Positions 28,834 to 40,332 of a stretch of DNA of 64,000 nucleotides are shown here, piece by piece. Within the stretch, counting starts at the first letter, position 1. Each line of letters starts with the position of its first letter. The stretch spans positions 1 through 64,000 of the forward strand of contig JAHDIN010000005.1 in NCBI GenBank assembly GCA_020630775.1, written 5' to 3'. The notes under the pieces were generated by a model that had not been told where the DNA came from, searched no databases, and worked only from the letters and a program-made list of their open reading frames with translations. Source of the stretch: Saprospiraceae bacterium (GTDB taxonomy: Bacteria; Bacteroidota; Bacteroidia; Chitinophagales; Saprospiraceae). A program made the position numbers and the translations under genes.

Positions 28834-30301
28834 CTACCGTGTACACACATATTATAATAATTCGTTATATTTAGTTAAATAAGAAAACTATGTCACTAAA
28901 TGTAAAGTGTCCTGACCTACGTTTAGCAAAAAGGGGGCTGCCATTCACAATGGCTTAATAAATAATTTCACAAGCTCGATAAAGCGTTGTTTTTTAGATA
29001 GAAAAGATTGTGTTTCTGTCTATCGATATTTAGATAATTCAAAGATATCGGAACAATACCTAAAAGATTTGATGTACAGTAAATGTCGTAGTAGCTGTAC
29101 AGAAAAAGAGGTTTTAGTTCTATGTGATACTACCGAATTTAATATTGACAATCAAAAAGGAAGAATAAAAGATTTTACAGGTTTAGGTGCTACTTCACAT
29201 AATAGTACCATTGGATTTTTTGCTCATTCAGCTTTAGTTATTGACCGCTTTTCTAATCATAAATTAGGATGGGCACATATTAATTTGTTTAACAGAACAC
29301 TTAAGAATAAACCATTTGTAAGATCAAATTCATCCGTTGCTATTGAGCAAAAAGAGTCTTTCAAATGGCAAAAAGCATGTTTAGAAAGTATTGATAAAGT
29401 AGTAGATACAGCAAAGAAAGTATGGTATGTCATGGATCGGGAAGCGGACATCTATGAATTGATGGAAAGAGTAACACCAAGAGCAAACTATATTATACGA
29501 GCCAGACATAATAGAAGACTATTAAACTCTGAAGAGGAATCAGTGCTACTCATTGATGATATAAAATCGAAAGCTGTTCAATCTGATGTAACATTGCACA
29601 TAAATGGTGAATCAAGAGGTCAAATAAAAAGAGATATTAGATGTGAATTAAGGTATTATAAGTATACAATACCGATAAGCCGAAAAGTACTGAAAAAAGA
29701 GGAGTATGCACAAAGTGTAGAAGTGTATATAATTCATATAGAGCAACAAGAGAAAACAGTAAAAAAGGGAGAGAAGTTTTTAGGATGGACTTTACTAACA
29801 AACGAGCAGATAGAAACTAGTGATCAGGCTATGCAAATAATAGAATACTATAAGAAACGGTGGGAAATAGAAGAAGCATTTAGATTATTAAAGCAGCAAG
29901 GATTTAATATAGAAAGCAGTCAATTAGAAAGTGGTTCCCGAATAAGAAAATGGTTATTATTAGGTATGGATGCATCGATAACAATAATGAAATTAAAAAC
30001 CTCCAGAGCAGGAGATACAGATTTAAAAACACAAGAAGTTTTTGATGAGCAAGAAAGACAATGTTTGGAATTATTAAATACAAGGCTTCAAGGTAAAACA
30101 GAGAAATTGAAAAACCCTCATGATAAAAAGAATTTAGCTTGGGCAGCCTGGTTAATAGCAAGACTTGGAGGATGGGATGGTTATCAGTCACAAAGACCTC
30201 CAGGAACAATAACATTTAAAAGAGGATTGGATCGATTTTATCAACAAGCTATGATATTTAAACTCTTAAAAGATTCTTCTTAAGTTATGTGTACACGGTA
30301 G
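28834..30301 (+). mobile_element. IS4-family insertion sequence (1468 bp)
   Basis: Terminal inverted repeats ctaccgtgtacaca (28834-28847) and its complement (30288-30301), 14 of 14 identical. The direct target duplication is ctttgaag, 8 bp, at 28826-28833 and 30302-30309. The element encodes one transposase in two overlapping frames. Family by the DDE and YREK signatures. The perfect ends and duplication indicate a fairly recent insertion. Confidence 0.95.
28890..30283 (+). CDS. IS4-family transposase, -1 frameshifted
   Basis: Reading from ATG 28890 gives MSLNVKCPDLRLAKRG and then a stop at 28956-28958. A -1 shift in the A5G5 run (28928-28937) joins it to the long frame that continues AAIHNGLINNF through to 30283, giving about 464 residues, a normal length for the family. 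The DDE triad is visible: D in LCDTTEFN, D in YVMDREADIYEL, E in the signature Y-2-R-3-E-6-K (YYKKRWEIEEAFRLLK). The shift could be programmed, transcriptional slippage, or a disabling mutation. An internal TTG start at 29069 would give only 404 residues and omit the DNA-binding N-terminus. Confidence 0.85.
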
Positions 30302-30577: not shown

Positions 30578-31354
30578 TTACTCCTCTCCTCTAATCCTGC
30601 TAACAAACCCCTCGATACCTCCCACACCCTCACGCTTTAAATGACGAATAAAAGCGCTTCCGATAATCGCGCCATTCGCATGTTGACAGGCATCTTTGAA
30701 GCTTTGGTTATCGTGGATGCCAAACCCAATGAGTCTCGGACATGGCAGGTGCATATGGTTAATGCGTTCGAAATATGCTTTTTGTTGATTGTCTATATCG
30801 GATTGATTTCCTGTAATGCTTGATCTCGATACCATGTAAAGAAATCCTGAACTTTCATTAGCGGCTTCTTTGATCCTAAAGGCGTCGGTTTCAGGGGTAA
30901 TTAGAAAAGACATGCTCACATTGTTTTCTACAAATAAAGATTTGTGATGCGCTTTGTAGAAGTCGATAGGTAAGTCAGGGATGATCATGCCGTCCACACC
31001 AGAGCTATTAAGTTGTTGTAATAATTTTTCAAAGCCATATTGAAGAAATTGATTGTAATATCCCATGACTACTATTGGAATGTTTGAAGTAGATCTGGCT
31101 TCTTTTATTTGGTCTAAAGTCTTAGATAAGGAGATGCCGTTTTTAAGTGCTTGGCTGCTGCTTTCTTGTATCGCTAATCCATCAGCCAGAGGGTCAGAGT
31201 AGGGGATGCCTACTTCAATAATATCTACTCCATGTTTATCTAGCTCCAATATAATCTGACTTGTGTCTTCTAGATTAGGGTAGCCCGCAGTAAAGTAAAT
31301 GTTTAGTATGCCTGCATTCTTTTTCTTAAATAAATCAGCAATTCTATTGTTCAT
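30578..31354 (-). CDS. trpA: tryptophan synthase alpha chain
   Basis: A 258-residue TIM barrel that cleaves indole-3-glycerol phosphate to indole and glyceraldehyde 3-phosphate, in complex with TrpB. The family motif ILNIYFTAGYPNLEDT is followed by the catalytic glutamate E47 (DIIEVGIPYSDPLADG) and the catalytic aspartate region MIIPDLP. Phosphate-binding glycines occur near IGFGIHDN and AIIGSAFIRHL. Last gene of the trp operon; unlike its neighbours it is separated from trpB by 184 bp containing a hairpin element. Confidence 0.97.
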   Translation of the reverse strand: MNNRIADLFKKKNAGILNIYFTAGYPNLEDTSQIILELDKHGVDIIEVGIPYSDPLADGLAIQESSSQALKNGISLSKTLDQIKEARSTSNIPIVVMGYYNQFLQYGFEKLLQQLNSSGVDGMIIPDLPIDFYKAHHKSLFVENNVSMSFLITPETDAFRIKEAANESSGFLYMVSRSSITGNQSDIDNQQKAYFERINHMHLPCPRLIGFGIHDNQSFKDACQHANGAIIGSAFIRHLKREGVGGIEGFVSRIRGEE

Positions 31355-31538
31355 GATTTAAATTTTTGATGGAGTGATTTAATAACAAGGGTTAAAAAGA
31401 TATGTGAGTGCTTGATTCAGAAGACGAAGCTCATTTTGAGATGCATAGCAGTAGCTATGGATGGAAAAATAGCTGAAGCCTGCCTTGCTGTCATGCAGGT
31501 ATTTTGGATCAATGACTTGCATAGGATTTGACAATTTG
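31355..31538. repeat. trpB-trpA spacer with REP-like hairpin
   Basis: A 184-bp gap inside an otherwise closely packed operon. It contains a hairpin catagc-agta-gctatg (31444-31459) inside a mildly GC-richer block. The block resembles in style the element at 48099-48188, which carries catagc-ttt-gctatg. No reading frame was accepted. Likely an inserted extragenic palindrome element, possibly affecting trpA level. Confidence 0.5.
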
Positions 31539-32729
31539 TTATTTAATCATTTCAATGTAAGTATTTAAATCTTTATCACCTCTTCCCGAAAGATTAATAA
31601 CGACTATGTCCTCTTTCTTAAATTCCTTTTGCTCAAGGACAGCTAATGCATGCGCCGTTTCTAATGCTGGTATGATACCTTCAGTTTTTGAAAGATAGTA
31701 GGCAGCATCTAAAGCTTCTTGGTCGGTTGCAGTAAAGACTTCAGCACGTTTGGTGTCTATAAGATGTGCATGCATGGGGCCGATGCCAGGGTAGTCAAGG
31801 CCAGCTGATATGGAATAAGGTTCTAGTATTTGACCATCCTCGTCTTGCATTAAGAGTGTTTTACTTCCATGAATAATGCCATCTGTGCCTAATATAGATG
31901 TAGCTGCCGAGTGTCCAGAATGTATGCCTTTGCCTCCTGCTTCGGCTAGTATGAGTTTGCAATTTTCTTCATGTAGAAAATGATACATCGCTCCTGCTGC
32001 ATTTGATCCGCCGCCGACACAGGCTAGTATGTAATCTGGATATGCGCGCCCACATTTATCAATCAGTTGATATTGTATCTCCTGCGAAATCACTGATTGA
32101 AAGCGCGCAACCATATCTGGAAATGGGTGTGGCCCTACAACGGATCCAATAATGTAATGGGTGTCTATAGGGTTGTCAATCCAGTCTCTAATGGCTTCAT
32201 TTGTCGCGTCTTTTAAAGTCTTACTGCCACTTGTAGCAGGCTTAACTGTTGCGCCAAGCATCTTCATTCTTGCCACATTTGGTGCTTGCCGTTCTATATC
32301 TACTTCGCCCATATATACGATGCATTCGATACCCATTAGAGCACAAACAGTAGCAGTGGCTACACCATGTTGACCTGCTCCAGTTTCTGCAATTATTCTT
32401 GTTTTACCAAGGCGTTTAGCAAGTATGATTTGACCTATCGTGTTATTGATCTTATGTGCACCAGTATGACAGAGGTCTTCTCTTTTCAGGTAAATTTGAC
32501 ATCCATAATTTTCGGACAAGTTTGTGGCAAAGTATAAAGGTGTTGGACGACCTACAAAATCTTTAAGCAATGCTTTAAACTCTTCTTGAAAACTTACTTC
32601 ACCAATAATACTTAAATATTGCTTTTGTAAATTGGCGATATTAGAATGAAGCATCTCTGGAATAAAGGCACCGCCAAATTTTCCATAAAAACCATTTTTG
32701 TCTATATCGTATTTTTTAACTGAATTCAT
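31539..32729 (-). CDS. trpB: tryptophan synthase beta chain
   Basis: A 396-residue PLP enzyme that condenses indole with serine to tryptophan. The PLP lysine is K93 in CHTGAHKINN. Also present are GAGQHGVA, the phosphate-binding GGGSNAAG loop and the C-terminal SGRGDKDL. N-terminal YGKFGGAFIPE is the TrpB1 type that pairs with TrpA. It overlaps trpF by 4 bp, so the two are translationally coupled. Confidence 0.98.
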   Translation of the reverse strand: MNSVKKYDIDKNGFYGKFGGAFIPEMLHSNIANLQKQYLSIIGEVSFQEEFKALLKDFVGRPTPLYFATNLSENYGCQIYLKREDLCHTGAHKINNTIGQIILAKRLGKTRIIAETGAGQHGVATATVCALMGIECIVYMGEVDIERQAPNVARMKMLGATVKPATSGSKTLKDATNEAIRDWIDNPIDTHYIIGSVVGPHPFPDMVARFQSVISQEIQYQLIDKCGRAYPDYILACVGGGSNAAGAMYHFLHEENCKLILAEAGGKGIHSGHSAATSILGTDGIIHGSKTLLMQDEDGQILEPYSISAGLDYPGIGPMHAHLIDTKRAEVFTATDQEALDAAYYLSKTEGIIPALETAHALAVLEQKEFKKEDIVVINLSGRGDKDLNTYIEMIK

Positions 32730-33340
32730 TTCCTCTCTTTTATCTGATTTATAAATTCTTGTACCAGTTTTAAGTCTTTTAGTCCTGGCTTTATTTCAAA
32801 TTTTGAATTAATATCTACACCACGAAATTCTGGGTGATTGATTGATTGTATCTCGTCACTATCATTAGGTCCGATACCACCAGCTAATAAAAATGGCGTC
32901 TTACCTTGGTAGCTATTTAAAATACGCCAATCAAATTTTTGTCCAGAGCCGCCATGTTGTTTTGTTTTGGTATCAAACAAAAAGTAATCGCAAAAATCGA
33001 AATCCTTAGTTTGTTGAATGTCGCTTTCTGAACTGACAGAGAATACTTTAATGCACTTTGTGAAAGTCTTTACCTCTTGGCAGAATGCAATTGATTCGTT
33101 TCCATGGCATTGTACATATTCTAAATTAAAGTCTCGTGTTGTACTTTTTATTTGGTCAATGGAAGCATTTACAAAAACACCTGCAAGTGGGGTCTTGATT
33201 TGAGAAAAGTTATATGCAGCATCTTCTGGCCAATGTCTAGGACTTGGATTGTAAAAATTGATACCAATGAAGTCAACAGCTAAGTTGTCCATAGCTTCTA
33301 AGTTATTTGGATTATTTATGCCGCAAACTTTGACTAACAT
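32726..33340 (-). CDS. trpF: phosphoribosylanthranilate isomerase
   Basis: A 204-residue TIM barrel that converts phosphoribosylanthranilate to CdRP by Amadori rearrangement. The catalytic Cys is C6 in KVCGINNP, and the catalytic Asp is in LFDTKTKQHGGSGQKFDW. LAGGIGPND and GVDINSKFE match the phosphate-binding end of the family. It starts 2 bp after trpC and overlaps trpB by 4 bp. Confidence 0.96.
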   Translation of the reverse strand: MLVKVCGINNPNNLEAMDNLAVDFIGINFYNPSPRHWPEDAAYNFSQIKTPLAGVFVNASIDQIKSTTRDFNLEYVQCHGNESIAFCQEVKTFTKCIKVFSVSSESDIQQTKDFDFCDYFLFDTKTKQHGGSGQKFDWRILNSYQGKTPFLLAGGIGPNDSDEIQSINHPEFRGVDINSKFEIKPGLKDLKLVQEFINQIKERK

Positions 33341-33342
33341 AT

Positions 33343-34122
33343 TTATAAGCTATCTTTTATGAATTGACTTAATGCTTTTTCTGGTTTTGATGATTTCATA
33401 AAGTGTTCGCCAATAAGAAAGCCATCAAAATTTGCTGCTTTAAGTTTTTTGACGACTTCAGGATTGGAGATCCCACTTTCTGAAATGCATACTCTATCTT
33501 TTGGTAATGACTGTCTTATGTTTATGCTGTGTTCATAATTAACATCAAAAGTTTTTAGGTTTCGATTATTTACGCCAATGATATCTATTTCGTTATTTAT
33601 CTTTTTCAATTCTTCAGGATCATGAATTTCGCAGATGATTTCCAAATCCAAACTATGAGCTATCTCTGTAAATTTTGAAATCTCTTCTTTCGACAGTATG
33701 GCCGCTATTAATAAAATGAGATCAGCGCCCATGCTTTTGCTTTCATGTATTTGATAACTGTCTACGATGAACTCTTTTCTTAGTATTGGGATATCCACAA
33801 GAGTTCTTATTTGATGGAAATCATTGTCCTGGGCCCCAAAGAAAGTTTTATCTGTTAATACAGAAATGGCCGATGCACCTCCTTTTTGATAATTTAAAGC
33901 CACAGAGGTAGAGTGGTCATGTACGTTTATTAGGTCTTTAGAAGGTGATTTACGTTTGAACTCTGCAATGATATGCGTTTCCTCACTGCCCAATGCATGA
34001 GCCAGTTTATAGCATTGACGCTGATAATGCGGACTAGCTGAAAGGGCTTCGAGAGATATTGTTTTTCGAGTATTATTGACTTCTTCGATTTTGTACTTAT
34101 ATATTTTTTCAAGAATATTCAT
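33343..34122 (-). CDS. trpC: indole-3-glycerol phosphate synthase
   Basis: A 259-residue TIM barrel that closes the indole ring from CdRP. Motifs: IIAEFKRKSPSK (catalytic Lys), ISVLTDKTFFGA, ILRKEFIVDSYQ (second Lys), IGVNNRNLKTF and CISESGI. It is separate from trpF here, unlike the fused enterobacterial enzyme. Overlaps trpD by 4 bp. Confidence 0.97.
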   Translation of the reverse strand: MNILEKIYKYKIEEVNNTRKTISLEALSASPHYQRQCYKLAHALGSEETHIIAEFKRKSPSKDLINVHDHSTSVALNYQKGGASAISVLTDKTFFGAQDNDFHQIRTLVDIPILRKEFIVDSYQIHESKSMGADLILLIAAILSKEEISKFTEIAHSLDLEIICEIHDPEELKKINNEIDIIGVNNRNLKTFDVNYEHSINIRQSLPKDRVCISESGISNPEVVKKLKAANFDGFLIGEHFMKSSKPEKALSQFIKDSL

Positions 34123-35111
34123 GATAGTTCAACAACCTTTTCAAGTGTTTTAAATGCTGATCCATTTTCTAATGCTTCTTTCCCAATTTCATAGCATTCT
34201 GAAAGTGTTTTCTGCGTTTCAAAATTTTTAATGGCTACTGCAGCATTGGCTAAAACAACTTCTGTTTGAGTGGCACTTGCTTCGTTTTTTAAAATGCTGG
34301 TAAGAATATCTCCAGCTTCAGCAATACTTTCCCCGCCGAAAAGGGCTTCTGCTTTTTTAGCAGCTAGATTAAAATCGGACGCATTCACTAATTTTTCCCC
34401 GTGTCTTTGGATGACCAAAGCATCTCCAGTCAAAGACAATTCATCATAACCATCCAATGCATGAATGACGGAATAGTTTCTATTTTCTTTATCAAGGATG
34501 TAATTATAAAGGCGAGCCAATTCTAGTGAAAAGACACCAACTGATTGGTGTGTGGGTCTAGCAGGATTAACTAGTGGTCCAAGCATATTGAAAAAGGTCT
34601 TCACGCCCAACTCTCTTCTAATCGGTGCTACAAACTTCATAGCTGGATGGAAAAGTGGGGCATGTATAAAACAAATATTACTAGCATCTAATTGCCTTTT
34701 AAGTTTGTCTACGTCATCTGAAAATTTATAACCAAGATGCTCCAATACATTTGAAGAACCACATATAGACGAAACACCATAGTTGCCGTGCTTGCTTACT
34801 TTGTATCCTGCGCCTGCTACAATAAATGCTGTCGTTGTAGAGATGTTGAAAGTATTTTTACCATCACCTCCAGTACCGCACAAATCCGTTGATTCGACAC
34901 CATCTAAATCTATAGGTTTACATAATTCTAATAAGGCATCTTTAAAACCAGTCAGTTCTTCTACGTCAACAGACCGCATCATAAATACTGTGATAAAGGA
35001 AGCCACTTGAGAGCTATTGTATTCTCCTTTAGAGATCTTGATTAGAATCTCTTTCGATTGTTCTCTTGTGAGATGATTATGATCAAATAAGTAATTAAGT
35101 ATTGCCTTCAT
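34119..35111 (-). CDS. trpD: anthranilate phosphoribosyltransferase
   Basis: A 330-residue class III phosphoribosyltransferase. The PRPP-binding glycine loop GTGGDGKNTFNIST begins at residue 79, and KHGNYGVSS (107-115) and the DE region (DGYDELSLTG) follow. It transfers PRPP to anthranilate. It begins 1 bp after trpG and overlaps trpC by 4 bp. Confidence 0.97.
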   Translation of the reverse strand: MKAILNYLFDHNHLTREQSKEILIKISKGEYNSSQVASFITVFMMRSVDVEELTGFKDALLELCKPIDLDGVESTDLCGTGGDGKNTFNISTTTAFIVAGAGYKVSKHGNYGVSSICGSSNVLEHLGYKFSDDVDKLKRQLDASNICFIHAPLFHPAMKFVAPIRRELGVKTFFNMLGPLVNPARPTHQSVGVFSLELARLYNYILDKENRNYSVIHALDGYDELSLTGDALVIQRHGEKLVNASDFNLAAKKAEALFGGESIAEAGDILTSILKNEASATQTEVVLANAAVAIKNFETQKTLSECYEIGKEALENGSAFKTLEKVVELS

Positions 35112-35112
35112 C

Positions 35113-35685
35113 TTATAGCTTTAAAAAATTAGCGATCATAGTATTGCCTTCTGGTGTCATGATAGATTCTGGGTGAAATTGGACAGCATATAAAGGATAT
35201 TCGTTATGTTCAATACCCATGACTTCGTCATCTTTATCGATACAGTTAATTTTTAATTCGTCTGGAAATCCATTTTTATCTGCCACCCATGAATGATATC
35301 TGCCCGCCATAAAAGGGTCAGGAATGTTTTCGTAAATGGGACTTTGACTTGAGATAAACATTTCCGTTTCTATGCCGTGTAGCACTGTTGCTAAGTTTTT
35401 TAATCGGCCCCCTAAAGCAACGACAATGGACTGCAGGCCTAGGCATACACCAAATATCTTTTTACTGGATTTATAAGTTTTAATTAAGTCTAAGCAAATG
35501 CCAGATTCTTCAGGTAAGCCTGGGCCAGGTGAAATGATGATGTGTTCATATCTGTCGCATGCTGGCACATCAATTTGGTCGTTTCTAAATACGTCAGGTG
35601 CTTGTCCAGTAATTTCTTCTACGGCATGTACCAAATTGTAGGTGAATGAATCGTAATTATCTAATATTAATATATTCGATGACAT
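35113..35685 (-). CDS. trpG: anthranilate synthase component II (glutamine amidotransferase)
   Basis: A 190-residue class I glutamine amidotransferase that supplies ammonia to TrpE. Catalytic triad: Cys in FGVCLGLQ, His and Glu in VQFHPESIM. The N-terminus NILILDNYDSFTYNLVH is typical. The chosen ATG (35685) lies 4 bp after the trpE stop; a start 24 bp further upstream would overlap trpE by 20 bp and is less likely. It could also serve folate synthesis as a shared amidotransferase, as in some bacteria. Confidence 0.95.
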   Translation of the reverse strand: MSSNILILDNYDSFTYNLVHAVEEITGQAPDVFRNDQIDVPACDRYEHIIISPGPGLPEESGICLDLIKTYKSSKKIFGVCLGLQSIVVALGGRLKNLATVLHGIETEMFISSQSPIYENIPDPFMAGRYHSWVADKNGFPDELKINCIDKDDEVMGIEHNEYPLYAVQFHPESIMTPEGNTMIANFLKL

Positions 35686-35689
35686 AGGT

Positions 35690-37069
35690 TTAATAGTTTT
35701 GGGCGTCACTAATAGCTTTCTTAAGGGCGCCTAATTTGTTATTTACTTCTTGTAGTTCTTTTTCTTCGTTTGAGTCTATGACTATACCTGCGCCTGCTTG
35801 ATAATGTAGTTTGTTATTTATAGCTAAAAAGGATCTAATTAAAATGGCCTGATTGATATCACCATTTAAGCCAAGCATGCCAATAGCGCCTCCATAGAAA
35901 CCTCTCTTAGTATTTTCTAGTTTATCAATTATTTGCATCGCTTTATATTTCGGTGCACCAGATAGCGTCCCTGCCGGAAAGGTATCTGCATATACTTTTA
36001 AAGCATCATTTTTATCTTTTAGTTTACCTTCTACTATTGAGGTAAGGTGAATTACATGACTGAAGTATTGAATTTCTTTTAGCTTTTTTACATGTACATT
36101 CTTGGCGTGTCTACTTAAGTCGTTTCTTGCTAAGTCTACGAGCATGACATGTTCTGCATTTTCCTTTGGGTCTTTTCTTAATGCTTCTGCTTGCTCCAAA
36201 TCTGTGGCATGATGCCCTGTTCTTTTAAATGTCCCCGCTATGGGATGAATTTCTGCAAATTGATTTGAGATAACAATTTGTGCTTCAGGAGAAGAACCAA
36301 AGATTCTGTAATCACCATATTCAAAGAAGTACAGGTATGGACTAGGGTTGATAGATCTTAGTCTTCGGTAAACATTAAATACATCGCCTTGATAAGATTG
36401 GTTAAATGCCCTTGAAAGGACTATTTGGAATATATCTCCTCTTTGCAAATGCTCTTTGGCTACACGGATATTATTCTTAAATGTTTCTCCGTCAATATTG
36501 CTGCCTTCTTCTCCAGTAATTTTAAAATCAAAAGTGAGGACATCTTGATAGTTTAATTGCTGTATGATTTTATCTATTTGACTTTCTTCACTATCCGAAA
36601 GGTACTCTCTGATTTCTAGAGTAGAATGATGATGGTCGAAGATGAGAATGTATTTGTAAAAGTCATATCTCAAGACCGGCGTACCAAGATCTGCTTTTGC
36701 ATCATTTAGTTCAATAGTTTCAAAAAACTCTACAGATTCAAAATTTGAATAGCCAAAAATACCGTCAGAGCCGTCTTGTTCATCTATTTCAATTTGATCA
36801 ATAAAAGCATCTATTTGATTCAGGACTGTATGCTTTGAAAGACCAGATTGGTTGGTCTCTTTTTGATTGTATGCAATAAAGCTATTGTCTTTAATCCTGA
36901 TTCCCTCGAGTGCCTTAAAGCATATAAAAGATCGGCTATTTTCCTTAGAGGAATAGTCGGAACTCTCTAACAAAAGTACTTGATGATATTTTTGTCTCAG
37001 TTTTAGGAATGTCCCAACAGGCGTGTAGAGGTCACTTAATATGCGTTTAGTATGCTTTGTGTATTTCAT
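35690..37069 (-). CDS. trpE: anthranilate synthase component I
   Basis: A 459-residue chorismate-utilising enzyme making anthranilate with TrpG. The LLES element near residues 33-37 (VLLLESSDYS) is the tryptophan feedback site, so the enzyme should be inhibited by tryptophan. The catalytic part holds FGSSPEAQIV, IAGTFKRTG, LVDLARNDL, FPAGTLSGAPKYKA and YQAGAGIV. First structural gene of the operon, 78 bp downstream of the leader-peptide stop codon and 13 bp downstream of the terminator hairpin's T-run. Confidence 0.97.
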   Translation of the reverse strand: MKYTKHTKRILSDLYTPVGTFLKLRQKYHQVLLLESSDYSSKENSRSFICFKALEGIRIKDNSFIAYNQKETNQSGLSKHTVLNQIDAFIDQIEIDEQDGSDGIFGYSNFESVEFFETIELNDAKADLGTPVLRYDFYKYILIFDHHHSTLEIREYLSDSEESQIDKIIQQLNYQDVLTFDFKITGEEGSNIDGETFKNNIRVAKEHLQRGDIFQIVLSRAFNQSYQGDVFNVYRRLRSINPSPYLYFFEYGDYRIFGSSPEAQIVISNQFAEIHPIAGTFKRTGHHATDLEQAEALRKDPKENAEHVMLVDLARNDLSRHAKNVHVKKLKEIQYFSHVIHLTSIVEGKLKDKNDALKVYADTFPAGTLSGAPKYKAMQIIDKLENTKRGFYGGAIGMLGLNGDINQAILIRSFLAINNKLHYQAGAGIVIDSNEEKELQEVNNKLGALKKAISDAQNY

Positions 37070-37082
37070 TTAGTTTAATTCT

Positions 37083-37122
37083 AAAAAACAGAAAAGGCTT
37101 GTCGGGTGTCGACAAGCCTTTT
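37083..37122 (-). terminator. trp attenuator terminator hairpin
   Basis: A perfect 13-bp stem (37092-37104 with 37110-37122) with a 5-nt loop. On the minus strand it is followed after three bases by six T (37088-37083), and trpE begins 13 bp later. Together with the Trp-rich leader peptide upstream, this is the terminator of a transcription attenuator. It could also end read-through from the AsmA-like gene. Confidence 0.88.
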
Positions 37123-37147
37123 ATATATTGTTAATACTGATAATAAG

Positions 37148-37210
37148 CTACATCTTACCCAAATTGTGAGTATAAATGCACCACCACCATGTATTTGTAA
37201 TTCTTCGCAT
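37148..37210 (-). CDS. trpL: trp operon leader peptide with three consecutive Trp codons
   Basis: A 20-codon reading frame, MRRITNTWWWCIYTHNLGKM, ending in TAG. The three TGG codons lie together at 37181-37189. Tryptophan is the rarest residue, and three in a row directly upstream of trpE, ahead of a strong terminator (37083-37122), is the hallmark of ribosome-stalling attenuation. When charged tRNA-Trp is scarce the ribosome should stall here and allow read-through into trpEGDCFBA. The antiterminator pairing was not resolved by eye. Confidence 0.88.
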   Translation of the reverse strand: MRRITNTWWWCIYTHNLGKM

Positions 37211-37214
37211 GATT

Positions 37215-37222
37215 CAAATCTA
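37215..37222 (-). promoter_or_regulatory. -7 box TAGATTTG of the trp operon
   Basis: An exact TAnnTTTG match between the AsmA-like stop and the leader peptide, ending 4 bp before the leader ATG. Transcription would start at or beside the ATG, giving a leaderless or nearly leaderless leader-peptide mRNA. No -33 TTTG was found at the usual spacing. Confidence 0.5.
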
Positions 37223-37242: not shown

Positions 37243-40200
37243 CTAATCTTTTTTCTTCTTTTTAAATGGATTCCATCCATCTAACTTAGCTTTAATCGAA
37301 TCAGCTTCAGATTTGCCGCTGTCTTTCAAAAGTCCTCCAAGTTTATCTTCCAAGATACTACCTAGGGTGTCTGTGACTTCTCCAGCAACTGTAGAATCAA
37401 TTCTATTTTTGATTTCTTCTTTTACAATGTCTTTGGCCTCATCAGTCTTTTTCTCTAACTCAGATTTCGCTACTGCTTTTAAAGTATCTGTCTTCTCTTT
37501 GACAACTGCAGTAACTGTATCCTTTAATGCCTCAGTTCGTTTTTCAGCTTCTTGCTGAAGGGTGTCCATCAATATTTCTTTTTGTTTGTTGACTTCATCT
37601 GCAACGACTTGTTTTAAGGTTTTACCACCGCTGCCTACAGGTATTATTTTTACTTTTGGTTTTAGTATTGTGCCAGTTAGGAAAATATCTAGGTAAACAT
37701 AGTCTCCCAATGAAATATCAACACCTCGGCTCTTAGCTTGCTTTTCTATTTCTGACATTCCCATTTCCAAGGTCTTGCCTAATTGTGCTTTACTGAGTTT
37801 TTCACGAGGTATTTTGGCATTTATCGTATAGTCTAAATTTTGATCTATGGAATGTCGACCTCCAACATTGAAATTCATACCGTCGAATTCATAGTCATGA
37901 GGTTTTAAAATAACGTATCCATCTTTAACTTCAAACCAGTTTTTAGAATCTTTAATATTGACATTTTTGAAAGAGGATATGCCTAATTGATCTCCAATGT
38001 TTTGTAGTGGTTTAAAGCCATCAATAGTTCCTTGGATAGTTTCCATGAAGCCCGAAGCATCAATCTTGAATAGATCCGGCATCATATCTTTCTTTAGTGG
38101 TCCTTCAATAACTAGGGTAGAGTTGAAGACCCCATTGATGTATTGAGCCAAAGGTGCTAGAATTTTGAAAGTTTCATTCTTTTCAATGAATCGTCCAAAA
38201 TTCATATTGCTTATATCATATTTAAAGTTGAATAATGGGTTGCCTAAATCACTGCTATCGTAAGCACCTTCAAAATTGAATTTACCTTCGAACATATGTG
38301 CTACACCATTGGTTAGAGCAGCTATACCATCTTCGACATCTATTTTTCCAGATACTTTATTTAATACATAGTCATCATAAATTACTTCTCCAATTTCTGG
38401 ATATATCTCTAGATCGAAATTTTTAGGCACTTCGACAACGCCATCTATCTCTTCTGAGGATCCTGACTCATTCATGTATTTGTTTGTATTCAATTTGTCA
38501 GTTTCAAAAAACAATTCTCCAGTCAATGTCTTTTCTTCAAATACAAAATCTATGATGTTGTTGAATTTTCCTCTCATTGCACTTGGAGAATTATCAAGCT
38601 TGAATGCTGAATTATTTATAGCAAGTGCGTTTTGGTCATAGCTGATATTTGTACTGAGATTTTTGATGTCATAATTTTCGTAACGAATGTCTTCAATAGA
38701 AAACTGTCCATCCAGTTTGTAATTCTTGAATGTGTCATAATTGCTTGTAATTGTATCAGAACTTGTTTGTTCTTTACTTGACCAAGCGTACAACTCATCT
38801 AGGTCAAGTAGCTTGCTAATACTCTTTATTTTAGTTGTGACCAATTGATCACTTCCAAGAGCATTCAAAGGATTGATGACATCTATATCTCCATTGAAAT
38901 CACTTTTGCCAATAGTTAAGTTATTGAATGAACTGTTGATTTTAGAAGGATTCAGTTCAGCATCAAAATTGTTTAGATTTATAGCCAACTCGTCATAAAT
39001 TAAATCTACATTCTCTCCTTTTACAGAGCCATCAAAATCTATGTTTGTATAATTACTGCTTTCTATGTCGCTCTGTCTCGCATCAATTTTGAAGTCAGAG
39101 TTGATAATGCCAGACCTTATGTCATATTCAGGAATAGGGAATGCTTCAGAAAATTTCTTGAGATCTATTGTTCCAATATTAGAAGCTTTAATGTGTGCAT
39201 TGTTAAAAATGTTATTAACTATCAAATCTCCTTTCATCTCATCGCCATCAATATTGAAGTTGTAGGTAGGTATATTGACTGATAGGTCATTCCATGCACC
39301 TTCATTAGCGGTTACGCCCATTTTTAGGTCAATGTCTTCTATCGGGTATTTTAGTGCAGGATACTTGACTTGACCGTTGTCTAAGTTGATATCAAAATTA
39401 ACTTTTGGGAAGGTGCCTTTGTCTGCCAAGTATTTTCCATTGATAAGTCCTTTTATAGACCCAGTTCCTTTTGAAGAAATATTTTCAAAGTCCTTTGAAA
39501 AAGCATTAGGTATCAATGACAAAATTGAGGCAACGGAGTTATTAATAGCATTTAGTTTTAAGTCAAAATCAAATCCCTCATCTAATATTGTTGTAGTACC
39601 AACTATCTCGAAATGTAGACCATTAAGTTTAACTAAGTTTTCTTTGATAGTATAAACGTTTTGGTCAAGATCGATACCTAATTTAAGATCAGCATTTAGT
39701 TTTGCATTTTTCATATAAGGAATAGCGCCGTTATAAACACTGATTTCTTCTATGTCTGTTTCTGTATCCAGATCAAAAACGACGTTTTTGAATGCACCTC
39801 TTCCTGAGTGATTTATATCAGAGAGTACAGCTTTTGAATTTGATGTTTTATCGATATAAGAAAATTGGCCGTCTCTAATTTCATAGTATTCAATATTACC
39901 AAAGAGATCATTGTCTGAAGAGCTGTTGGCTGTTTCTTTTGTAATGTCATAATTAGCCTTTCCGTCTTCATTGACCTTTATATTTATGACTGGTCTGTCT
40001 AATAGAATTTCGCTGACAGTGATGCCTTCGCTTGATTTGATTATTGACTTCCAATCTGTAGCTAGGTATATTTCGTCGGCTTTCATTAAATTTTGACCTT
40101 CAAATGCGTCTACTCCTGTTAGGCTAGGCTGCGAAATCTCGATAGAGATTTTAGGAAATGCTTTAAATAATGAAAGATCAAGATCACTAAAATCCAATTC

Positions 40201-40332
40201 TGCATCTATGTTTTTGTTAGCCTCTTTTTTTATCGCTTCAGCGATTTGATCCTTAAAAAGAATAGGTGCTAGTAACAATAAAACGATGAGTGCTACAAAC
40301 AACCAGAATAATATTTTAAAAAATTTCTTCAT
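37243..40332 (-). CDS. AsmA-like (AsmA/TamB-superfamily) envelope protein
   Basis: A 1029-residue protein with one N-terminal membrane helix (FFKILFWLFVALIVLLLLAPILF, about 4-26). A long beta-rich AsmA-type body follows: the DLSLFKAFPKISIEISQPSLTG opening is characteristic of Bacteroidota AsmA proteins, and an AsmA_2-like C-terminal part runs to about residue 910. The last 120 residues are a lysine/glutamate coiled coil ending in NPFKKKKKD. Relatives form hydrophobic bridges thought to carry phospholipids between membranes. Single gene upstream of the trp leader; a distant -7-like box lies at 40474-40481. Confidence 0.88.
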   Translation of the reverse strand: MKKFFKILFWLFVALIVLLLLAPILFKDQIAEAIKKEANKNIDAELDFSDLDLSLFKAFPKISIEISQPSLTGVDAFEGQNLMKADEIYLATDWKSIIKSSEGITVSEILLDRPVINIKVNEDGKANYDITKETANSSSDNDLFGNIEYYEIRDGQFSYIDKTSNSKAVLSDINHSGRGAFKNVVFDLDTETDIEEISVYNGAIPYMKNAKLNADLKLGIDLDQNVYTIKENLVKLNGLHFEIVGTTTILDEGFDFDLKLNAINNSVASILSLIPNAFSKDFENISSKGTGSIKGLINGKYLADKGTFPKVNFDINLDNGQVKYPALKYPIEDIDLKMGVTANEGAWNDLSVNIPTYNFNIDGDEMKGDLIVNNIFNNAHIKASNIGTIDLKKFSEAFPIPEYDIRSGIINSDFKIDARQSDIESSNYTNIDFDGSVKGENVDLIYDELAINLNNFDAELNPSKINSSFNNLTIGKSDFNGDIDVINPLNALGSDQLVTTKIKSISKLLDLDELYAWSSKEQTSSDTITSNYDTFKNYKLDGQFSIEDIRYENYDIKNLSTNISYDQNALAINNSAFKLDNSPSAMRGKFNNIIDFVFEEKTLTGELFFETDKLNTNKYMNESGSSEEIDGVVEVPKNFDLEIYPEIGEVIYDDYVLNKVSGKIDVEDGIAALTNGVAHMFEGKFNFEGAYDSSDLGNPLFNFKYDISNMNFGRFIEKNETFKILAPLAQYINGVFNSTLVIEGPLKKDMMPDLFKIDASGFMETIQGTIDGFKPLQNIGDQLGISSFKNVNIKDSKNWFEVKDGYVILKPHDYEFDGMNFNVGGRHSIDQNLDYTINAKIPREKLSKAQLGKTLEMGMSEIEKQAKSRGVDISLGDYVYLDIFLTGTILKPKVKIIPVGSGGKTLKQVVADEVNKQKEILMDTLQQEAEKRTEALKDTVTAVVKEKTDTLKAVAKSELEKKTDEAKDIVKEEIKNRIDSTVAGEVTDTLGSILEDKLGGLLKDSGKSEADSIKAKLDGWNPFKKKKKD

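Follow-up and report, generated by a model that had tools for sequence, protein, structure and literature searches.

The region ahead of trpE in the window (the whole 64 kb stretch of DNA that was analysed) most probably contains a ribosome-mediated transcription attenuator of the trp operon, in which the RNA around the leader stop codon would serve as the antiterminator and whose parts suggest a response to tryptophan. We propose that the antiterminator strand consists of the last codons of the leader together with its stop codon, and that it pairs with the loop and the upper 3′ arm of the terminator, referred to below as the terminator apex. Judging from the comparison of sequences, the leader ORF, its Trp codons, the terminator, the pairing of the leader end with the terminator apex and a competing 1:2 pairing are all supported. 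Ribosome-mediated attenuation had already been put forward in a preliminary description of this DNA, and with the Trp codons conserved in relatives it remains the best reading.

Organization of the trp leader region

The window combines a leader rich in codons for the end product (WWW) with an intrinsic terminator before the first gene (Table 1). As the preliminary description had stated, a 20-codon leader with three adjacent TGG codons is present, the coordinates being correct when read on the minus strand (ATG at 37210-37208, TAG at 37150-37148), and the -7 box lies upstream with a gap of 4 nt to the ATG. The same description took the peptide to be too short for the usual gene finders, which is plausible. 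A 25-nt spacer separates the leader stop codon from the stem of the strong terminator that had been placed ahead of trpE at 37083-37122; the latter indeed has a stem of 13 pairs and a U-rich tract. In total, 78 nt lie between the leader stop and the start of trpE. The full operon announced in the same description is borne out by NCBIfam matches, which give the order trpE-G-D-C-F-B-A; those of TrpE and TrpF are strong, yet under the equivalog cut-offs.

Table 1. Elements of the trp attenuator region and the genes downstream of it.
Feature	Position	Strand	Basis
-7 promoter box TAGATTTG (Bacteroidetes TAnnTTTG)	37215-37222	minus	sequence; TAnnTTTG enrichment in relatives
Leader peptide ORF, MRRITNTWWWCIYTHNLGKM then stop, 20 aa	37148-37210	minus	sequence; WW leader ORFs in relatives
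Three adjacent Trp codons, predicted sensing site	37181-37189	minus	sequence; conservation
Strand 1, 5′ arm of the 1:2 hairpin, right after the Trp codons	37167-37180	minus	MFE fold (UGCAUUU-UACUCA with UGGGUA-AGAUGUA, 37180-37167 with 37161-37149); class-wide swap test
Strand 2 as in the 1:2 hairpin, leader end including the stop codon	37149-37161	minus	MFE fold
Candidate antiterminator helix A, 5′ half UUGGGU	37157-37162	minus	pairing with 37107-37102; class-wide signal
Candidate antiterminator helix A, 3′ half ACCCGA (terminator loop and top of 3′ arm)	37102-37107	minus	pairing; partial-transcript fold
Candidate inner antiterminator helix B, 5′ half GAUG.AGCUU	37145-37154	minus	partial-transcript fold of the window; class-wide support weak
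Terminator 5′ arm AAAAGGCTTGTCG	37110-37122	minus	sequence
Terminator loop ACACC	37105-37109	minus	sequence
Terminator 3′ arm CGACAAGCCTTTT	37092-37104	minus	sequence
Terminator U-rich tract CTGTTTTTT	37083-37091	minus	sequence
trpE, first controlled gene	35690-37069	minus	ORF; NCBIfam
trpG, trpD, trpC, trpF, trpB, trpA	30578-35709	minus	ORFs; NCBIfam

The stop codon of a large AsmA-family gene (37243-40332) is found 20 nt before the -7 box, so that the promoter region overlaps the 3′ end of that gene; visual inspection upstream of the leader revealed no good -33 element. At the other end of the operon, trpB and trpA are separated by a gap of 184 nt (31355-31538) in which no clear feature was apparent by eye, whereas the remaining trp genes overlap or abut. 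A DDE transposase gene lies just past trpA on the opposite strand (29069-30283).

Within the 64 kb of the window, the minus strand contains (TGG)3 at two places and the plus strand at none; the second minus-strand copy is antisense, within a large gene. The 131-nt leader RNA folds with -39.6 kcal/mol compared to -23.3 kcal/mol for shuffled sequences (z -5.24, 0 of 200 shuffles).

Conservation of the leader in relatives

We collected 209 regions upstream of trpE, 201 of them distinct. The preliminary description had tied its reading to the conservation of the Trp codons in related genomes, and a short ORF with adjacent Trp codons is present in 172 of the 201 distinct regions, with a terminator next in nearly all cases. 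Among the other 29, several show W-x-W leaders (WQW, WLW, WCW, WRW), start codons other than ATG or upstream DNA that is too short. As judged by TrpE, the nearest named relatives are Saprospiraceae metagenome assemblies with 66-69% identity; the source genome is estimated to be 54% complete. Tandem trp attenuators also occur: locus L183 has three Trp-leader ORFs in a row, with a separate terminator for each, and two attenuators follow one another upstream of trpE in both L174 and L025.

The pairing tests described below are based on the 171 leaders that have a usable terminator. In 95 of these, the 70 nt ahead of the leader ATG include an exact TAnnTTTG, the background frequency being about 0.03 in 71 nt. 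The distances between box and ATG fall into two groups, 4-10 nt and 18-23 nt, some gaps being overstated because the ATG closest to the Trp codons was chosen. With a box 4-10 nt from the ATG, the known geometry of Bacteroidetes promoters would point to a leaderless or almost leaderless mRNA. Taken together, the conserved leaders, the fold score, the rarity of (TGG)3 and the enrichment of the promoter box make it clear that the trp leader in the window is a feature that did not arise by chance.

Predicted pairing of the leader end with the terminator apex

In many relatives, inspection by eye shows a CCGAGTGA-like sequence at the leader end, in which the stop codon is often contained, and the loop and 3′ arm of the terminator carry the complement TCACTCGG. 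This was evaluated by a swap test, in which each leader is combined with the terminator apex of its own locus and with those of other loci, and the pairing energies are compared. The stretch from stop-18 to stop+4 pairs with the apex at -10.5 kcal/mol in own combinations and at -7.2 kcal/mol in swapped ones (171 loci), with a z of -17.6 that, like all such permutation values, overstates independence because the sequences are related; controls sharing the same relatedness gave z 0.1 for the ORF start, 0.3 for upstream DNA and 0.7 for the spacer. When a 12-nt segment is moved along the RNA, the signal peaks with z -18.7 at -12 to 0 of the stop-codon end, and it has fallen to zero by -24 and +6. 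It is found within the family Saprospiraceae (z -15.3, n=120) and also outside it, among further families belonging to the class and order (z -7.3, n=51). At least 7 contiguous pairs are formed by 56% of the own combinations compared to 20% of the swapped ones, and the 5′ halves of these helices are diverse, 79 being different among 96. Indeed, the match is kept between loci with differing terminators, as in L008 (CGAGAG/CTCTCG), L062 (GAAGTT/GAACTTC), L074 (ACCAGGAAGT/ATTTCCTGGT) and L028 (CGCTGTGA/TCACAGCG).

L008 belongs with L079 and L115 to a subgroup whose terminators are quite different (GAACTTGCAAATC... or AAAGAGCTTGTAGC...), and the matching complement is still located at the leader end.

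The preliminary description had not found a convincing antiterminator by eye. A candidate can now be proposed with strong support from the comparison, while in the window alone only the 6 bp of helix A are seen (UUGGGU:ACCCGA, one G-U pair, -7.9 kcal/mol), which taken alone are not significant against shuffles of their own sequence (p 0.32). The eight members of the genus yield a z of only -2.0 for apex pairing. For this locus, the proposal draws its support from the class. Pairing of the leader-end strand with the terminator 5′ arm shows little class-wide signal (z -1.5, 171 loci), the swap test being weak for this arm because its sequence is itself conserved.

Leaders of a similar kind precede his genes. 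On contig C21 of the same genome, a His leader (MNYKNLHHHFHFCPQAM, then stop) followed by a terminator is located upstream of hisG (L221), with a TATATTTG box 10 nt before its ATG, and similar His-rich leaders are present in most family members that have hisG. The same pairing test gave z -1.6 for the His leaders, not significant with only n=17; pairing at the stop codon is suggestive in L231, L220 and L214.

Ribosome position and order of folding

The leader-end strand has a competing partner in the RNA from the Trp-codon stretch onward, with which it forms the 1:2 hairpin (own versus swapped, z -11.6). The stop codon ends a median of 30 nt after the last Trp codon, and the 5′ half of the antiterminator spans -12 to -1 from the stop-codon end (median); in the window it begins 18 nt past the last TGG. 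A ribosome covers about 15 nt beyond the first base of its P-site codon. Such a footprint fits with a ribosome that, with a Trp codon in the A site, would cover most of strand 1 and free the leader end, and with a ribosome at the stop codon that would cover the leader end.

The stalled ribosome was modelled by folding partial transcripts in which the RNA is free from 10 nt past the last Trp codon. The leader-end pairing is dominant in 85% of loci when 6 nt of the terminator 3′ arm are out, in 60% at 8 nt and in 11% at 12 nt. A ribosome placed at the stop codon makes the leader-end pairing impossible in the partial folds and lets the terminator grow at once, and with no ribosome the leader-end pairing is mostly hidden. 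For the window, the partial fold with at most 6 nt of the 3′ arm out combines helix A with the inner helix B, GAUG.AGCUU paired with AGGCUUGUC (37119-37111) in the terminator 5′ arm, at -15.1 kcal/mol. In the full-length fold, thermodynamics favour the terminator even if a ribosome is stalled, and antitermination would thus hinge on the structure that forms first and on the speed with which the polymerase departs. Full-length MFE folding was itself discarded as a test of antitermination, the terminator winning nearly always and the result being uninformative.

Comparison and folding both point to an alternative pairing that would exclude the terminator, and its dependence on the ribosome would follow from the geometry. 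In the model that we propose, we infer the start of transcription, the stretches covered by ribosomes, the kinetic race between the structures and the reaction to tryptophan. The leader ATG, or a position just ahead of it, would be the point at which transcription starts. Under a shortage of Trp-tRNA, the ribosome would stall on the three Trp codons and cover strand 1, thereby opening the 1:2 hairpin; the freed leader end could then pair with the emerging terminator loop and upper 3′ arm and, in the window, the RNA following the stop codon would also hold the terminator 5′ arm. With its apex captured by the leader end, the terminator would fail and trpE would be transcribed. When tryptophan is plentiful, the ribosome would get to the stop codon and cover the leader-end strand, so that the terminator could form. 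In the case of no translation, the 1:2 hairpin would keep the leader-end strand, again resulting in termination.

Alternative explanations

The leader end engages the loop together with 5 nt of the 3′ arm (median), which leaves the lower part of the stem available for pairing, and the two pairings cross. The pairing of the leader end might form a pseudoknot with the lower terminator stem that weakens or delays the terminator without excluding it. We consider this rather unlikely, since nested folds lacking the lower stem account for the partial transcripts.

A second alternative is that the only antiterminator is of the E. coli type, in which the terminator 5′ arm pairs with the post-stop RNA (2:3), the pairing of the leader end with the apex being secondary. 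The window by itself does speak for such a pairing, which has the same energy as that of leader end and apex (both -7.9 kcal/mol) and coexists with it in the partial-transcript fold. However, over the 171 loci the 5′-arm pairing gives z values of -0.6 to -2.3 as opposed to -17.6 for the apex, in a swap test that is low-powered here as the 5′ arm is conserved in sequence; 11% of loci are at p<=0.05 compared to 3-5% in the controls. As the main antiterminator, pairing of the post-stop RNA with the 5′ arm was set aside, being present in the window fold but with little class-wide signal, and we judge that an exclusive role for it is quite improbable.

It is scarcely credible that we are dealing with the plain terminator of the upstream AsmA-like gene next to a chance ORF: the stem is near-perfect and lies about 120 nt past the end of that gene, but Trp codons, ORF position and terminator recur before trpE in most relatives, whatever the upstream DNA, and this conservation already contradicts a chance ORF even before the pairing of leader end and apex is considered. 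Equally hard to conceive is a leader ORF that works only via translational coupling or reinitiation at trpE, without transcription attenuation; an association with reinitiation has been described for leader ORFs close to downstream genes (PMC4833913), but here the 78 nt and the strong terminator intervene.

Comparison with known attenuators

The attenuator that we propose resembles the Bacteroid-trp motif (RF01692), which is likewise found before trp genes in Bacteroidetes and combines a short ORF containing tandem Trp codons with a terminator downstream. Rfam lists this motif as a tryptophan peptide leader, and in Weinberg et al. 2010 it is tabulated as a likely cis-regulator (PMC2864571). 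An Rfam scan of the window at gathering thresholds gave no match. Compared directly to RF01692, the window scores 42.3 bits with a gathering cut-off of 49 (E 4.8e-4 over 211 nt), model positions 1-131 being aligned full-length, and it is the sole match in its genome at E<=0.01. The cut-off is passed in only 2 of 160 Saprospiraceae genomes; L009, from the same family as the window, passes it. The element is formally under the curated line and yet clearly related. The model ends in the terminator 5′ arm (the window match ends at 37111) and consequently cannot hold the pairing between leader end and terminator apex.

In Flavobacterium psychrophilum, Bacteroid-trp has been read as an E. coli-like attenuator (PMC6414381), and the transcriptome of this organism, in the accessible part of its description, provides strong clues for leader-peptide attenuation before amino-acid biosynthesis operons (PMC9723704). 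The window would share leader-peptide attenuation with these leaders; an antiterminator scheme does not feature in that part of the text. In the main texts, mostly of freely readable papers, that our search covered, we found no description of a pairing between leader end and terminator apex. The kind of attenuator is already known, and its wiring appears to be new, though an earlier description is possible.

Attenuation by tryptophan is a textbook form of regulation. If our reading is true, the switching strand would lie under the terminating ribosome and would target the last-made rather than the first-made half of the terminator, a wiring that would provide a clear test of the race between ribosome position and RNA folding. 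The pairing rule, missing from the Rfam model, could also aid the finding of attenuators in Bacteroidota. We are evenly divided as to whether it extends to the trp (and perhaps his) attenuators of Bacteroidia at large, as a class that is often near-leaderless and in which the stop-codon strand would kinetically capture the emerging terminator loop and 3′ arm, unlike the 2:3 pairing of E. coli.

In the textbook scheme of the E. coli trp attenuator, the 2:3 antiterminator uses the 5′ arm of the terminator. The window shares with E. coli trpL a leader peptide with tandem Trp codons, a 1:2 hairpin and a terminator, with the position of the ribosome as the probable sensor. The attenuation had been called classical in the preliminary description, which holds for order and spacing, both resembling E. 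coli, and is otherwise only partly right because the pairing scheme that is supported differs from the 2:3 antiterminator. When E. coli trpL was used as a control, the RNA following the stop codon paired with the terminator 5′ arm at -14.0 kcal/mol compared to -4.9 kcal/mol with the loop and 3′ arm. In E. coli it is thus a post-stop strand that pairs with the 5′ arm, whereas in the class of the window a strand straddling the stop codon would pair with the loop and the upper 3′ arm. Since the trpL control fits the 2:3 scheme, the design proposed here would represent a different wiring of the same principle.
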